From assembly GCA_015143295.1 (NCBI GenBank), contig CM026573.1, forward strand, positions 3,321,950-3,385,949: a stretch of 64,000 nt of DNA, written 5' to 3'. Below the pieces are notes generated by a model. The model ran no database searches, was not told the DNA's origin, and saw only the letters and a list, made by a program, of their open reading frames with translations. The DNA is from Tetracentron sinense (taxonomy: Eukaryota > Streptophyta > Magnoliopsida > Trochodendrales > Trochodendraceae). The translations under genes and the position numbers were made by a program. This document shows, piece after piece, positions 50,152-60,219 of the stretch (position 1 is its first letter; every line of letters begins with the position of its first letter).

Positions 50152-50546
50152 ATACAATAATAATTTGTCGTATTATTTATATATATATTTTGAATTAATT
50201 AGCAATGAAGATCAGGTTTTGATTGGATCCTGTTTGCGTTGACTTCTTTCACAGATTTACATTGGAGTTTCAGTTCACGTTAACAGTATTCTTACTCAGC
50301 CCAATCTAACAAGAGTCAACACCGCACGTTGCCACGCCACCTTAAGATTTGGGTTTGCTTCTGTCGAATGAAATCAACAATAAATTGGGTCGGATCGGGT
50401 TGATGGGTATCCTCACTTGAAAAAACCCCGAATCCGATTCGGGTTGTTAATTGGCCGCTTGGTGAGGTCCAATTCTAGATGGGCCTAATATATGGACCCC
50501 GAGTCCGGCCCCCTTTTAATCGAGTCAGGTCTTGCTTTAATATTAA
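50152..50546. other. Intergenic, no gene seen
   Basis: Short unique-looking stretch between a MITE and the Helitron array. No coding frame that I trust. Confidence 0.5.
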
Positions 50547-52642
50547 CTAGCAAGGAGCCCGTGCGTTTGCACGGAGAATGCTAAACCAAAATAGAGTAAA
50601 TGACAATAGCAAAAATAAAAGTCAAACAATTATTACCAAAAAATAAGAAATAAAATTTAAAAGCACTCGAAGAAAGAGCAAAATTCTTTTACAAAATAAA
50701 CAATGAATGACAAAAATCATATCTATATTAAATTTATATTTAAAATATATTTTAAAAAAATTAATGTAGGTTCATTTTAATTAGGTATTGAATTTAGAAT
50801 AAAGGAAAATAAAAAACTTTCAGTGGTCCCTTGCTCTTTATTGGGCAAACTGTCTTGTGGGTGCAGTGCTGCTAAATCCTATTCTTGACCGAAAACCGTG
50901 AATACATGGGTGCATATAGCAATTCTCTTCCCCCCCTCTCTCTCTCTCTCTAATATTTGGGGAAGGTAATCACAAAAAAATTGTTTGACTATAATATGCC
51001 TAAGAAGTTGATTATATAATCCTTTTAAAAAAATTATCAAGAACATTTCTCTAATTACTCATGCAACCTCCAACCATTAAGCTGAAAAGAAGAAATTAAA
51101 AAAAATAAAATTGATTATATTTAAAAATTGTTCGGCAATAATGTTACATAATTATCAATATCGATATAATTCATTATTTAGTTGCACACATACATCTGAA
51201 TCAATACCAAACTATGTTGACAAAGAAGAAACTCCCATATAAACTATCCAAAGTTTGAGAACGTAAAATTTTTTATAAGGCCAAATGGTCGATCTTAATG
51301 CATATGGATTTTTTCATTCTCTTTGAAATAATTTAGGAAAATAAATATAATATCTTCCTAGAATGAGATACCTTTTTAAAGTGAAGTGTGGATCAATCCC
51401 CATGTGGTATAGAGTTCAAATATATTTGATAGAGCACTAAAATTAACCACAAATCAGACGGTTGAAGCCAGCCCACCAATGACCAGCGGGCTATGAACTC
51501 CCATAATACACTCCAACATATATTTTTTTTCATCGATTAATTATTCAGTTAGAAATATATTTTAATAAAAAAGAGAAAAATTAAAAATCTAGGGGCTGCT
51601 TAGGCAGAGGAAGCATACCAATTGTCACACCTTGAGCCGTTCATCGCATCACGGGGATTGCTAAATAGATGGACGAAGATCATAAACACATAAGGGAAAA
51701 CAAAGTTGGAACTTGGCTTTTATGGTTTGTTTGCTACATAGATAGAGGCCTGAAAGGAAATGTATCAACCTCCCCGAAGCCCTCACTTTCCAAACCGTCC
51801 TTGGTCTCCTATTTAGATAGCTCCAGCTTTGCTAATGGCATCGATGTGCCTTTGATACAGATTTCACAGTCGATGGATGATCTACATCAGTGAACTTCGA
51901 AGCTTAAACTTTTCTCAAAAACTTGGAAGGCGTCGGATTCCTTGTAATGTACAAAAAATGTAGAGAAGAAATGCTCCGAAGAGAATAAATGAAAAGTCAG
52001 GAGTGAACATATAATATGCTATTAAAATAAAAATAAATGGTATAAGAGATACTCAAATAAATGAATGATTGAAGAAGTGTAGATGCTTTTAAGAGGGTGA
52101 AGGGTTGCAACGATTTGAAAACGTTGGATGGATTGAGGAAAAACCAAGGGTTGTAACTCTTTGGGTTGATACAAACATATCCGCAATGCAAAACCCTATA
52201 TAAACAACATGCCTCTTCCCCGTTGGTGCAACCGAATATGTGTTATAGTTGTCTTTTAAGATAGTATTGTGAGGAGTTGCGTCGCTCTAACATTTTTTTA
52301 TTTTTTATGAATAGTTGCTTCCGTCTCGTAAATGGAAATCGAGAGGAAGAGGTGATAAATAGGAAATGTCACTATAAATGTAATGCCTATAAAATTTCTC
52401 TTGTTTTTTGGGGAGCCTACAGAATGTTCTTCGCAGACAATTACATCCATGAGGAGTTACATCCCTCAATCAAACGCCACGTGAAGAGTTGTGCCCCATG
52501 CGAAGAGTTGTGTCGCATGGATTCAACGATGTCTCCAACAGGTACGAATTACTTTGGCTCCTAATTGTAGTGGTTCCACTCCCTAAAATTGCTCCCGAAC
52601 CGCCACGTAGACCTTCTTGTCCCCGGCTTTCATTAGTAGTAA
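50547..52642 (-). mobile_element. Helitron H1 of a three-member head-to-tail array
   Basis: Minus-strand 3' end: stem-loop CCGTGC-AAAC-GCACGG (50558-50574), GCTCCTTG, CTAG at 50547-50550, then T. The 5' side ends in TTACTACTAATGAAAGCC at about 52642, directly against the 3' end of H2. Flanking parts match H2 (for example 51490-51520 with 53355-53385, both CTATGAACTCCCATAAT), but the middle (about 51550-51930) differs. A 74-codon plus-strand frame at 51669-51893 lies there; I do not recognise it. Confidence 0.55.
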
Positions 52643-55406
52643 TTAGTAAGGAGCCTGTGCGATGCACGAAAACTTTTTAAAAGAAAAAAAAGTGAGTAAT
52701 ACAAAATAAAAGAGTTGAAGATAATTGTTAATTATGTAAATATGTATTAAAACAAAATAATATATACTTTTGGCCCTGCTTATTGGCTAAGATGTTTCAC
52801 TCTTCCTTAGTAACTTTCAATTAAGTATTAATGTCATCTCTTTATATGTGTTATATAAAATTAAATTAAATAAAGTAGACTAAAACTCTATCCCTTCTTA
52901 GAACTATATCCCAAACCAAGCACAACACCATTTTGGTGCAGAGAAGTTGAGCTGCATGACCATCAATTTGGTTAGAGAACTTTGGCCCAACATTAATTTT
53001 CCCTGTCAAACCTACACTATTGTCCAGTCGCGCGGTCCATTGGGTGTAATACAAAGTTTAAAATTATAATCCTTTTTAAGGACTCCCATTAATAGTAATC
53101 CCTGGAAGCTACTGGTTTATGCATGAGCAAATCATGGTTCATGGTTGAGTTGATAATGTCCCTACATATAAGAATGTAATAAATAGAAAAGCACAAATAG
53201 AAAAAAATTTGCAGGCGTAATTCACATCTGAATAAAGTGTAGAATATTTTCAAGCATCCCAGAGACATAAAACTTGAGGAACTCGCAATAGGTGGCCCAC
53301 CAATTAGTAGATCCAATTCCATCTGATGCTAGATGGACAGTTAATGATGTGCGGACTATGAACTCCCATAATGCACCACACCAACATACATTGCCTCCAT
53401 CTAATTAATTCTTCAGTTGGAAATGAAAAATATAAATAATTATCCAAACAGGTGACAAACCACAATTATAAGCGTCCAGAGATTGTGTTGATTGGATAGC
53501 AGGGCTCTTTCATGAATACCTAATACGCACGTGGATGCGATTTAAGAGATCTGTTCGGAAGCATAGTCAAAAGCTCTCACCCTCTCTTAACTTTTTAATT
53601 TTCACTAAAATAAAATGTCATTAAACTAACGAGTAGCACTTCAATACTCCTAGTGTATGGAAAGCTTAAGTACCTTAGAATTGTGGCCGTTCATCTGGCC
53701 ATGATTCTAATTAGTTACAGGTAGTAAAAAACCGAAGAAACATGCAAAAATTAAGGGATAAGTGTGTGTTCATATGAATACATCTAAACCGTCCATCTTT
53801 AGATTGGACAGTTCATATCTAAAGATATTGTATGTTTAGATACTTTATGGGTACCGAAAAAAAATCCTAAACTAAAAGAAATTTACCATCACCATCCACC
53901 CCTTCTTTTTACATCTATATATATATTTTTTAAATTAAAAAAAAATAATAATAAACAAAACTCAGCATCTCCTCTCCTTGCCTCTGACCACACGATGTGT
54001 CATACTCATATCATATTGGAAAAAAAATCCACAAGAGATGAGGAGGGGAAGTAGAGCAGTTTCATTCCAAATTAAGCATTAGGACCAGCACATGCCTTCA
54101 AAATAGAACTCCAAATCCACTGCACCAAGAACCTCCTCCCATTCAAATTGAAAATCATGCCTTTTCCATCACTCAACAACTGACCTATATACCCACCTCC
54201 ACCTCCTTGCCCATACAATCTCTCTCACAAATACCTGGTATCCGTCGGAAATTCTATAGCATACCAAGCATTCACCAACATTACCTTACTACCCATATAC
54301 CCCCGGCACAACAAATGGGTACACGTACACCTCCGGGCAATACTTCCCTGAATTCCCCACCCAGGCGTATGGTAGTGTGTACCCGATCATAACGTGAACT
54401 AATAGTACCCGCAAACAGCTCGGCAGAAACATTGAACTGTTACATTGCTAGATGCCAAGATCGAGTAGATTCTGTTCTTGTGGGTTAGATGGGCACCATG
54501 GGAGTAACAAATATCGGTGTACTCGCCAGCAAAAAAGATTAATCGAGATAAATTTGCTCTGGTTTGGTCGGTGTAGAGTGAAATAGTGCGCCACCACTCA
54601 GAGACGGAGGGTGAGGCATACAGACCTACAGAGATTTGTGGGTCCTTGTTGGCGAGATGGCTCTGACTAGAGGATGGTAGTTGAACTACATTAGCTAACA
54701 TCGAAGCGTTAACTTCACTGCAGCCTGTAAAGCTTCTCTATCCCGGGATGTACAAATATGAAGGGAGTACCCATCAGACAATAAATACAGAGACGAAAGT
54801 GAACATCTGCACATAAAAACTAAAAACTGTTAGAGATGTTGAAGGAGATAACTGAACAAAGAGTGAAAGATTTTGAAATTAAATTCTAGAGAAAAAGGAG
54901 AGAAATGAGTAATGAGATAAGGTAGATGTTGAAGAGTTGTAGAAGCATTTAAGGGGACGAAGGGCTGCAATGATTTGGAAAGGTAAGAGCAAAGGTCGTG
55001 ACCCTCAAAAGATACTGAAGCGTTGCGACCCTTTTGAGGTAGAGTTCCATAAGAGGGAAAAGCTCTTTAAATCTCTTTATCCAAAGAGATGCATCCCACC
55101 GCATCCAACATGTGTGTTTTGTTTGATATATAAAGGCAAAGAGAGCAAGAGTTTGTAGGAAGGGCAACGAACAGGTGTGTTTTGTTTGATGTGCAAAGGC
55201 AGAGGAGAAAGAGTTTAAAGGAAGAGAGAAAGGAAACCGACGCAAATGGTGTATTTGTTGAGAAGATTCATGAATCCAACAACGGGTACGTCTCTCCACT
55301 TTCATATACTCCATCTCGTCTCTCACAATCTCTTATCAAAGACTCCTAAAATTGCTCCCAAAACGCCATGTGGACCTCCCCCGTCCCTGGCTTTCACATA
55401 GTATAA
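52643..55406 (-). mobile_element. Helitron H2, middle member, carries an EXORDIUM-like fragment
   Basis: Minus-strand 3' end: GTGC-ATC-GCAC stem (about 52657-52667), CTCCTTA, CTAA at 52643-52646, then T. The 5' side is TTATACTATGTGAAAGCC at 55406, directly against the CTAG of H3. Shared 5' half: AGAAGCATTTAAGGGGACGA (54940) resembles AGATGCTTTTAAGAGGGTGA in H1 (52080). Cargo is the EXORDIUM-like piece at 54072-54701. Confidence 0.55.
54072..54701 (-). pseudogene. EXORDIUM-like (PHI-1 / EXL family) gene fragment inside Helitron H2
   Basis: Minus-strand translation gives EXORDIUM landmarks in the right order: SEWWRTISLYTDQTRANLSR, EYTDICYSHGAHLT, CRAVCG, GYTLPYAWVGNSGKYCPEV, YPFVVPG, NAWYA, LYGQGGGGGYIGQLL, FLVQWIW and a terminal LKACAGPNA just before a stop at 54072. 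EXORDIUM proteins are secreted wall or apoplast proteins tied to brassinosteroid and sugar-linked growth. The N-terminal third with the signal peptide is absent, the frame shifts after CRAVCG, and roughly 35 residues are missing between VVPG and NAWYA (the region with GHELAEL in intact members). So it is a captured, broken host gene fragment in the Helitron's own direction. Confidence 0.8.
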
Positions 55407-58400
55407 CTAGTAAGAGACCCGTGCGATGCACGGGAATAATTTCATAAAAGAAAATATTTAATTTACTTTTAAATTGGAATAACAATGTTAAAATGATTAA
55501 CTTAAAGTAAAAGAAAGATTGGTGGGTATGAATGCGCATAGTTGCTCCTGCTCCCTAGTTTTTTTTTTTTGTTTAACTCAATTACACCACAAGGCGATAG
55601 CTAAAGGCAAGACAAAGGAAGATAAGGAATCCTAATGGTAACAAAATGATTTGGGGAGTGATATACCTAATTTCCTCCTAATTCACTTTCTCAATTTAGC
55701 TCTTTTCTAACAATTACACAACCAAAATTGTGCAAATCTGTCTCTCAAATAAAATAAATAAATAAAAACAAATTCGATTAACTTTTCTTTTTTTGATTTT
55801 TTTAAGAAGCTCCCAAAGGGGGAGGCTGGTTTGACAATTCAATCTTTATTAAAAAAAATTGGCGGATAAGATTATATAATTTTTGTTAAAACGAATTAAA
55901 ACAAACCTTGCTTCCTATAGTTCCCTTACCATCTAAGACCTGTAATAAAGCCAACTGTTCAGCTTGTTTTTTTTTTGGGTAGATAGTTTGTTAAAAGATT
56001 TGAAACAAATCTTTTATTTCAATCTAGCAATACTTTGAAATCTTAAAAAAAATTACGCATGTCCAGAGTCACTCAAAAAAATAAACCTATCTATGTTCTT
56101 AACACTCCCACATACAAACTAATTATATTTGACTGAAGCAAATGTATTATTTTAATGTAAAAATGATCATACAATCCATCCAACAGAGTGCATGTGTTTT
56201 AATCTCATGTAATACGTGTTGGCTCATCTATTTATTCATTAATTAGTAGTAAATGGATTGGGTGCACCAACCTGAGTGTGTTATCTTTGGTCACAGCATT
56301 AGAAAAAGTAGCAATACCATTGTTCCTTCATGCCAGAATATCACAAATCTTTTAGTTTGGGATCTACTGAACATAAAGAAAAAGAAGAAAATGCGGGTAA
56401 GTCTAATGAATAGCGTCTTTGACATGAATTATTAATCATTAAAAATATATGTAAACTAAAGAAAAGACTACAACTAAGTAAGGAAAAGATTAATGTTGGC
56501 ATATGTATGTTCGCGCATGTAAGAATTAGTAGATGATGTACATATACCCAAAAATGCTTGTGTAGAATATAATGAAAATATATAAAGCAAAACTAATAAA
56601 ATGAAGCAGAAATAGATTATCAGCAAATGTAAATAATATAAACAGTAAAATAATCCAGAAAATCAATATAAACAAACTAATGAAAAAGAGGATAGTTTGT
56701 AGAAGAGGCATGCCCCGCTTGTAACTAAAGTGAATGAATTTATTGAGAATTCTTGAATGATTTACAATGACCCCATAAAGGGTTTAAATAGATGTTTCAT
56801 GCCAAGACTCCTAATATAGAAAGATCTCTCAAAGATAATCCTAATCTAATCATACCTAATCAAATCCTAAATTCAAATTTAATTGATACTATCTAATTGT
56901 GAAGAGATACACTAATAATGATACAGTGTATCTCATTCACTTTATTACAATAGGATATTTCCTAATATTCCCCCTCAAACACATGTGGATTGAAAATCTT
57001 CATGGGTTTGCGCAACTTGAGTACTCCCTTTGTGCATGAAGAGCTAAAACATCCGTGCTTGGTAGTCACCGCCAGTCTGTGAAGTCTATCTCTGTCGCAT
57101 CCCGCTCATATTTATGAGTCTGTTGGTGCCGGTAGCCCACTAGATCAAGCTGTCATGATCGTCTTCTCAAAGCACCCGAAGATTGATTTGCAATGTGAAG
57201 AAAAACTCTCATTAGAGAGGTCTTCAATAAAATAAAAGGAAATACACTTATTACGACAACCATCAAAGAGGAATAAAAAAAAAACTAGACCAACCATGCT
57301 AACATCTATGTTGGCTTTGATGACAAAAAAAATAAGAAAGAGAATAGAGAAACTTCAGTCCCGACGGGCGGCGACAATGCCGCCCGCCGGAAACACGTAA
57401 TAAAAGGGAAAAAAAAAATCAATACAGGCAGATCGCCCGCTCTGATACCATAAAGTAAATGAATTTATTGAGAATTCTTGAATGATTTACAATGACCCCA
57501 TAAAGGGTTTAAATAGATGTTTCATGCCAAGACTCCTAATATAGAAAGATCTCTCAAAGATAATCCTAATCTAGTCATACCTAATCAAATCCTAAATTCA
57601 AATTTAATTGATACTATCTAATTGTGAAGAGATACACTAATAATGATACAGTGTATCTCATTCACTTTATTACAATAGGATATTTCCTAATAGTAACCAT
57701 TACATTGGCGGGCAACCAATCAATAATAACCAATCTACTTACGAATTGCAGCAAGTTAACTCTCTATGTTAATCACAGCCTATAGAGTTTGAAGGGAATG
57801 AGTTCTATCTAAAGACATGCTAAGATAGATTGCGGCAACTCATCTCAGTGATGACCATTGATGCTCAGTCCCATGAAGCGCCATCAAGTCTAACTTAAGT
57901 TGAATACTAGAGCAGCATAAAAATAATGCATTGATCCATTAAATTCATATATATATAAAATAGTTTTAAATTTAATTAAATTAAAATTTAGTAAAAGGTG
58001 TAAAGTTTGAAAATAATGAAAATAAAAAAATTCGGGAAGTGCTAACCCCACTATCCTCTTAATTCAATGTACACTTTTACGGGCAAGAAGACAGATTTTA
58101 AATCCCCACATATAATCGGTCTTCTTTTGTCCCCAAAAGAGTTCTCCTTGAAAACGGATGAGTGCAATAGAAGAGTGAGGCTAGCACAAAATAAATAAAA
58201 TTAAGAGTGACTACTAAACATCAACCCAAATTGGAGAAGAAAGTTCTTAAAACTAAAACTAAGCCTTCTTTAAGCAAAATTATAATTTAAAAAGTCGCAC
58301 ACTTGGATTCATCATTACTCACCATCGTGAAGGCCTGAACATCAGGAGCCTCGAGTTGTTCTGAGGGATCTCACCTGAGTCTATAAGAAAAGGGTAACAT

Positions 58401-59483
58401 GCTTTTTGTTGCTGGCATGATATCTAACATCCTAAACCATGACATATGCAATATGATTTCATCAGAAGTTGTTCAAGATTCCCACATAAAAAACAAATAC
58501 AATACCTAGCTAGTTCTAAAACACAAACAATCAAGAGAAGGTAAAAAAGTAGATACAGAGATAGAAGTGACCTTCTATAACGAAAGTGGGCTCCGGATCA
58601 CCTAATTTAATGAAGAGAAGATGAAGGCATTGCTTTTCTGAATCCCAGAAGTAGAGGCGAGAGGGTTCATCCCAAGCTATGAGATTTGCTGTGTTCGAGA
58701 GGTGGCAGAATAGGTAGTGCCACCGAAGGAAGTGGTGGCAGTGGTGAAGTCGGTCGAGAGAATAAGAGGGAGTCATGACAAAATTGAATTTTGGAGTAAT
58801 TTACAGAGTTATATAGTTGGGATGTCGACAGAAGCCAGGAGGTGCAACGTTTCCAAGGGACAACAGTTTGTATCAATAGAAACAGTGTGATGGCATGTGA
58901 AGAGTTGCGTTCCCATCAATTGAAGAGTTAAACAGAATTAAGAGGGATGAATGTTAAAATGTAGGGGTTCAATTCCCTAAGATGAAGGATTGCAACTCTT
59001 GGAAAAGTTACTATGTATTAAGCAGGTGCAACATTTCCGTGTTTGGACTGATACATGCATCTGTACACTTGTTGCAACGTATTGGACAGATACATCCTCG
59101 TACCCTATCTCTGTTTCAAATCTATCTACTATATAAGGTAAAAGGAGACATGATGGTTGGATGATGGAAGAGGTATATCGTTTGGGTAGTGTTGTTTTCA
59201 ACGGGTGCCAAAAAATATTGAAGGGTTGTGTGTGTTCCCATAATAATAACTGCCAAAAAAGTATATGTCACAACCAATCATTGAAGGACATGTGGCATAA
59301 ATAGCGTCAAATCCCTCTACACCCACCGTTTGAAAAGTTATCAAAGGGAAAGGCATGCAACCCTTTGGAAGGCCCACACGCCTCTCCACACTCTTCCTCT
59401 CTCGACCCTTTTATCCAAACCTCCTAAAATCACTCTCGGCCACCACGTAGTCCTCTCATTCCCTGGCTTTCATTAGTAGTAAT
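55407..59483 (-). mobile_element. Helitron H3, upstream member, hosting a TRIM-like element
   Basis: Minus-strand 3' end: perfect stem-loop CCCGTGC-ATC-GCACGGG (55418-55434), TCTCTTA, CTAG at 55407-55410, then T. The 5' side reads ATTACTACTAATGAAAGCC at about 59483. The 5' half matches H1 and H2 in style (GAAGAGTTGCG, CTAAAATCACTC). The minus frame at 58531-58776 (IAWDEPSRLYFWDSEKQCLH) may be captured exon sequence; I do not recognise it. The last ~4 bases of the 5' terminus are uncertain. Confidence 0.5.
56726..57692 (-). mobile_element. TRIM-like LTR element, looks whole, target duplication GTAAC
   Basis: Two 242-bp LTRs (56726-56967 and 57451-57692) that differ at only a few sites I could find, around a ~480-bp non-coding middle. 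GTAAC at 56721-56725 and 57693-57697. Minus orientation: a tRNA-Met type primer site TGGTATCAGAGC directly follows the right LTR (about 57439-57450), and a purine tract GAGGGGGAA abuts the left LTR (about 56968-56977). The LTR ends read TA...TA, not TG...CA. Near-identical LTRs imply a recent insertion, probably under a million years at usual plant rates. Confidence 0.8.
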
Positions 59484-60050: not shown

Positions 60051-60219
60051 GGACTTTGCTACTGAGACCGCAAAAGGGCCGAGACCTCCGAGACCTCGTG
60101 CCTTTGCCCGAGATTTCAGGTGGGGCCCATCTTCACATGGTGGGCCCCACCTGAAATCTCGCGCACAGGCGTGAGGTCCCGGAGGTCTCGGCCCTTCCGC
60201 GGTCTCAAAAGCATTTCCC
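60051..60219. mobile_element. MULE-type MITE, 'TGAGACCG' family, copy 2, duplication TTTTGGATA
   Basis: 169-bp near-perfect palindrome: GGACTTTGCTACTGAGACCG ... GGTCTCAAAAGCATTTCCC. TTTTGGATA at 60042-60050 and 60220-60228. The other LTR of the Gypsy fossil (about 61903-61911) keeps the empty site. Confidence 0.85.

Follow-up and report, generated by a model that had tools for sequence, protein, structure and literature searches.

The window (the whole 64,000-nt stretch that was analysed) contains three related Helitron-like elements, H3, H2 and H1, which lie head to tail on the minus strand and abut with no spacer at all. This arrangement and the build of both junctions had been described in an earlier note on this DNA, and we confirm them here. 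At each junction the CTRR end of the upstream element is followed at once by the 5' end of the next one; the junction at 52643/52642 reads ...CTTACTAA|TTACTACTAATGAAAGCC and the one at 55407/55406 reads ...CTTACTAG|TTATACTATGTGAAAGCC. The array is 8,936 bp long. Of the span previously given, 50547..59483, the start stands, but H3 stops at 59482 and position 59483 is a host A. We lean towards the interpretation that three different elements arrived successively at the left (5') edge of a resident element. The array and its parts are as follows:

50546, minus strand: host T of the single A|T target (from the empty site)
50547, minus strand: 3' boundary of H1, fixed by the empty site
50547..52642, minus strand: H1, non-autonomous Helitron-like element, 2,096 bp, innermost member; 5' TTACTACTAATGAAAGCC ... 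CTAG 3'
50559..50574, minus strand: 3' hairpin of H1, 6-bp stem (z -2.97)
52643..55406, minus strand: H2, non-autonomous Helitron-like element, 2,764 bp, middle member; 5' TTATACTATGTGAAAGCC ... CTAA 3'
52657..52667, minus strand: 3' hairpin of H2, degenerate, 4-bp stem (z -0.30)
54399-54737, minus strand: stop-to-stop frame holding the Phi_1 fragment of H2
54405..54617, minus strand: captured gene fragment in H2, Phi_1/EXORDIUM-like (PF04674, E 2.4e-11)
55407..59482, minus strand: H3, non-autonomous Helitron-like element, 4,076 bp including a TRIM, outermost member; 5' TTACTACTAATGAAAGCC ... CTAG 3'
55418..55434, minus strand: 3' hairpin of H3, 7-bp stem (z -5.47)
56726..57692, minus strand: TRIM within H3, with 242-nt LTRs at 56726-56967 and 57451-57692, 99% alike
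59483, minus strand: host A of the single A|T target (CCTA|T); empty site C23:3397659-3398132

The members are alike at their termini. Over the first 60 nt, 49 positions are identical between H1 and H2, 50 between H1 and H3 and 44 between H2 and H3, and over the last 30 nt the corresponding identities are 23, 25 and 25. H1 and H3 begin with TTACTACTA and H2 alone with TTATACTA, which corrects the TTAYACTA starts given previously. The 3' ends read CTAG (H1), CTAA (H2) and CTAG (H3), all conforming to the CTRR of Helitrons. A stem-loop had been proposed before both junctions; a better hairpin precedes the 3' end of H3, as it does that of H1, whereas the stem-loop of H2 is weak, 73 of 200 shuffles folding equally well. 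As expected of Helitrons, the array as a whole sits in an A|T without target-site duplication. The canonical 5' TC is absent, all three members starting with TT, and we therefore name them Helitron-like with 5' TT, not strict canonical Helitrons. A sister 5' end on C21 (L188) begins TCATACTACATGAAAGCC. No Rep or helicase Pfam match was obtained in the 6 frames scanned out of 30 of at least 60 aa.

That the flanks match while the middles differ also holds: with the ends set aside, the BLASTN matches between H1 and H2 were limited to short blocks, and H3 matched neither of them. The EXORDIUM-like piece in H2 and the TRIM in H3, both noticed before, were each recovered. GTTAC flanks the TRIM on both sides, as read from the sequence, and the TRIM is younger than H3. 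Just outside the array, at window 60057-60213, lies a possible MITE, an inverted repeat whose two 73-nt arms are 88% complementary and separated by 11 nt. A rolling-circle concatemer of one element that diverged later would likewise be head to tail and free of spacer, with the same chemistry as a circle junction; however, the middles here are unrelated, the members are not repeated copies, and for every member relatives closer than its neighbours were found at other loci. Contradicted by both cargo and relatives, this explanation is very improbable and we reject it.

The joined host flanks of the array (A at 59483, T at 50546) were searched in the genome. Besides the window itself, they matched C23:3397659-3398132 with 91% identity over positions 1-478 of 485. 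In the alignment with this paralogous empty site, 459 of 507 positions are identical and the A|T is intact and ungapped, small gaps occurring elsewhere, indicating that the whole array fills one A|T with no target duplication. The empty site is located about 16 kb past the left flank, outside the window, and the array is probably later than a local duplication. The host flanks show no further rearrangement relative to the empty site, which speaks against ectopic recombination or template switching between older arrays as the process that reassorted the members. Mixed partners at identical junctions would be expected from such a process too, but older arrays would be required, and we regard it as improbable.

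Relatives of the individual members were found in other company. One relative of H1, at C6:34917072 (blocks 91% and 87%), lies behind a different upstream element, and a relative of the 3' part of H2 at C16:24898654 (blocks 90-96%) lies before a different 5' end. On C11, an H2-like copy is preceded by CCTA and runs at its 3' end into sequence in which no Helitron start was recognised, the intervening DNA being unread. The last 1.1-1.2 kb of H3 have relatives on C21 at 92.5% (L185) and 90% (L186), both with other downstream sequence. In L185 the H3-like 3' end precedes another Helitron start, whose first 42 nt are 86% identical to H2 with no BLASTN match further in; in L186 it is followed by unassigned sequence. 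These two partners are less independent than they look, since all three close H3-like 3' ends (window, L185 and L186) precede sequence starting TTATA[CT]TA and since the L185 partner matches H2 over those 42 nt. The common start could be inherited from an H3|X composite from which all three descend, or simply reflect a preference for TTATA targets. Among more distant H3-type ends, L198 and L204 continue into other sequence, and L197 has a damaged CAAG followed by TTATATATT. The other partners of H1- and H2-like elements thus count against a concatemer, whereas those of H3 are harder to interpret.

It is quite conceivable that H3 arrived as part of a composite. The array, or H3 together with a neighbour, would then have been made elsewhere by a transposase that set out from a left end and read through internal 3' ends, and have landed here, which fits the single A|T occupied by the whole array as well as the TTATA[CT]TA behind all three close H3-like ends. 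Read-through past a 3' end is described for Helraiser in part of one report (PMC4778049). Furthermore, C6:36236055 and C23:2044143 have an upstream part, the junction and a downstream start in common, so pairs can be copied together, and in the C6 copy a left-end-like sequence lies no more than about 100 nt from the point where their homology stops. On the other hand, neither junction of the window was met again with the same downstream element: no second H2|H1 copy was found among the 40 scored of 187 candidates, and no second H3|H2 copy among the 40 scored of 158, L185 being the near case. The H2 start TTATACTATRTGAAAGCC has 1 occurrence. Taken together, we consider manufacture elsewhere a rather unlikely source of the array.

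The order of arrival is addressed by the bases that precede 5' ends across the genome. The 5' end TTAYTACTANTGAAAGCC had 112 genome matches, of which 100 places were listed. The distinct flanks that were read (n = 101) comprise 90 A, 8 G and 3 T, and two of the three T flanks turn into A if an extra TTACT is assigned to the element. All eight G flanks end a CTAG. A hairpin was detected by a loose pattern at seven of them, three of which (L048, L049 and L051) have a perfect stem of at least 5 bp; the eighth, L052, has no clear hairpin. Together with the H2|H1 pair of the window (CTAA), these eight make up the paired copies, and 9 paired left ends in 101 seems far above chance. Among the 101 distinct flanks, G was never met before an unpaired copy. 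Twelve other CTAA flanks in this set lack a hairpin by eye, one of which (L003) has a Helitron-end-like tail (TTTTTACTAA). The A flank is not absolute, since a TTACTATTA start with a C flank was read at 4 places, which represent one duplicated locus outside the 101 count.

Single copies, which the earlier note had proposed to look for, start with TT after a host A and differ in the sequence beyond. The idea that TTAYACTA...GAAAGCC is internal sequence was rejected, given that unpaired copies start there after a host A. A simple scan of the 101 flanks, most of which had been collected without regard to arrangement, revealed no exact inverted neighbour; L127 has an inverted 5' end 8 nt off. In both L101 and L127, ACTAGTAA directly precedes the 5' end, and L101 has a hairpin 3' end about 20 nt upstream of its 5' end. 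Small end duplications, in the form of an extra TTA, TTACT, TTACTA or TTACTACTA before the normal start, were observed in 10 of the 101 copies (L016, L027, L029, L037, L083, L096, L108, L117, L124 and L126).

The base before the element is therefore nearly always A in unpaired copies, and it is the upstream element's G in pairs. As G was not seen before any unpaired copy, the upstream member was probably the second to arrive, at the border between the host A and the resident's first T. The finished product looks alike whichever member came second, and the H2|H1 pair alone, owing to the CTAA end of H2, also fits insertion on the 3' side at an A|T. The reverse order, in which each downstream element would enter at the 3' border of its upstream neighbour, with CTAG on one side and the host T on the other, has been raised for maize (part of PMC2267711) and would give the same-looking product, with an ordinary A|T in the case of H2; it would, however, need G|T in 8 copies, when the other 93 flanks are 90 A, 3 T and 0 G. 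We find this order hard to believe. Judging from the flank counts, growth from the left end is favoured, and the simplest account is that the downstream element was already resident when the upstream one inserted at the border of the host A and the resident's first T. Repeated targeted insertion or recombination had been preferred to a concatemer in the earlier note, and the empty site, the other partners of H1- and H2-like elements and the A/G flank table support the first of these, repeated insertion at the 5' A|T.

In successive arrival at the left edge, H1 would have entered the host CCTA|T first, and its first base T would have re-formed an A|T target with the host A. H2 would have inserted at this re-formed A|T in the same orientation as H1, and H3 then at the A|T before H2. 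The host A would stay outside the outermost element and the inner junctions would read CTRR|T. The left edge may be favoured because the transposase would bind and nick there, and the CTAG 3' end of the second element would be joined to the resident 5' T by the usual circle-closing reaction. Both the order H1, H2, H3 and this mechanism are what we infer. The outer flank of H3 is A; A also precedes the 5' ends at C16:35355357 (L107), C16:24895757 (L106) and C7:41827857 (L080), each about 2.4-2.9 kb before a junction, with the DNA between partly unread.

The 3' ends were inspected in the same manner. The strict 3' end GTGCATCGCACGGGNNNNTTACTAGT had 339 genome matches, and the first 40 listed were read by eye. 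A Helitron-like 5' end followed directly in 7 of them (L134, L140, L147, L160, L161, L163 and L164), two of these 5' ends beginning TC, whereas no recognised Helitron start followed in the remaining 33, which agrees with the stem-loops being termini, as proposed earlier. Three of the sampled ends (L136, L137 and L139) are one duplicated locus. An automatic 5'-end test, which is weak in that it detected only 40 of 90 known 5' ends, was positive at 5 of the 40 sampled 3' ends versus 57 of 40,540 T positions in the window. The combined pattern of CTRR and 5' end gave 24 matches; apart from the window's, the CTAA cases among them have no hairpin. Reversed-pattern controls gave 0 matches both for this pattern and for TTAYTACTANTGAAAGCC, indicating that the matches are not due to chance.

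Altogether, junctions were read at 32 places, or 27 after merging by eye of pairs alike on both sides (L047/L057, L048/L195, L187/L202, L190/L191 and L200/L201). They comprise the 2 in the window, those at L005, L046, L047, L048, L049, L050, L051, L052 and L057, the seven from the sampled 3' ends, and L185, L187-L196 and L200-L202. Thirty read CTAG, 1 reads CTAA and 1 lacks the G (L189); the first bases of the following start are altered in L192 and L193, and the start is doubled in L196. All 32 are head to tail, most searches having been built for that arrangement. Alignment revealed L005, L185, L187-L194, L196 and L202, and alignment as well as pattern L195, L200 and L201; the remaining junctions came from patterns containing CTRR or CTAG, or from the sampled CTAG ends. 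A 3'-end detector (stems of at least 5 bp), applied to 51 loci partly chosen for CTRR, placed an end at distance 0 on the same strand in L048, L049, L051 and L059 and found no inverted end at distance 0; a further 16 ends lay elsewhere within 1.2 kb. Regularly spaced 3' ends at about 11.55 Mb on C4 were considered as a concatemer and rejected, being a tandem repeat, not a head-to-tail junction; the locus (L131, C4:11546700-11552900) consists of tandem units of about 1.85-2.2 kb, in each of which a Helitron 3' end is followed by the same sequence.

The left flanks also display a directional motif, C-N-N-A|T. Among 89 non-junction flanks, with similar ones merged, 70 have C at -4 and 86 have A at -1. 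In nine of these flanks, additional letters (TTA, TTACT, TTACTA or TTACTACTA) come before the normal start; when these letters are trimmed as element, a treatment chosen after the data had been seen, the counts become 77 and 88. The background of C before other A|T is 17-19% (135 of 700 in the same flanks and 2,015 of 12,115 in the window), and the C count is raised by some copies that have one repeated target in common. Several copies (left flanks of L002, L081, L095, L096, L120, L125 and L128; also L173-L184) share one insertion point near GAGATCGAATCACAGCCAA|TTA, which lies about 19 nt into another repeat, counted from its start. The 22-mer there has 38 exact genome copies, 12 of which were read, and other Helitron-like 5' ends occur at the same point in L174/L175 and L183.

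The host CNNA|T may echo the CTRR end of the element, such that a resident keeps an oriented target at its left edge only. Since C-N-N-A|T has direction, it would by itself give head-to-tail insertion at the left edge. We tentatively suggest that one rule, C-N-N-R|T, governs target choice, left-flank recognition and right-end cleavage, with stacking only leftwards and head to tail. The T start would then re-create a directional target at the left edge, the G staying at the right edge. The left-flank preference is possibly new; we know of no report of it, and it was not found in the open-licence papers covered by a search that was not fully targeted at the motif. For Helraiser, the relevant parts of two reports give a preference for AT in AT-rich flanks and mention no C at -4 (PMC4778049, PMC5876387).

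The arrangement itself is of a known kind, adjacent Helitrons having been published from maize, bats and fungi; such neighbours have been taken for rolling-circle concatemers or for consecutive insertions whose order was unclear (part of PMC2267711). The maize case, as far as that part of the report describes it, resembles the present one in having CTAG followed directly by the next 5' end (a G/T junction) and different gene fragments, for which consecutive insertions were proposed. It has two members with 5' TC and its order was left open, whereas here there are three members, all with 5' TT, and the order can be addressed from the flank counts. Myotis bat tandem Helitrons (Pritham and Feschotte 2007, as cited in portions of PMC2267711 and PMC5876387) have perfect head-to-tail junctions, as here, but are described there as tandem repeats of Helitrons, whereas the middles differ in our array. 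Three tandem copies in a row also occur in Metarhizium acridum, where a double insertion into the 5' end of another copy is one of two readings offered in the relevant part of the study (PMC5148889); these are fungal elements from a study of non-canonical Helitrons. Helraiser forms precise CTAG|TC circle junctions (part of PMC5876387), in which CTAG is joined directly to the 5' end as here, although one element is joined to itself (PMC5876387, PMC4778049, in part), unlike the array of different elements in the window.

The C-N-N-A|T preference offers a simple reason for growth from the left end. If this is right, the left ends of Helitrons would be predictable insertion sites, and head-to-tail junctions would build composite elements with several captured gene pieces. 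Should the single rule prove true as well, the left ends of residents would be standing landing sites, and arrays of unlike elements would arise as an inherent by-product and give rise to new composite transposons.
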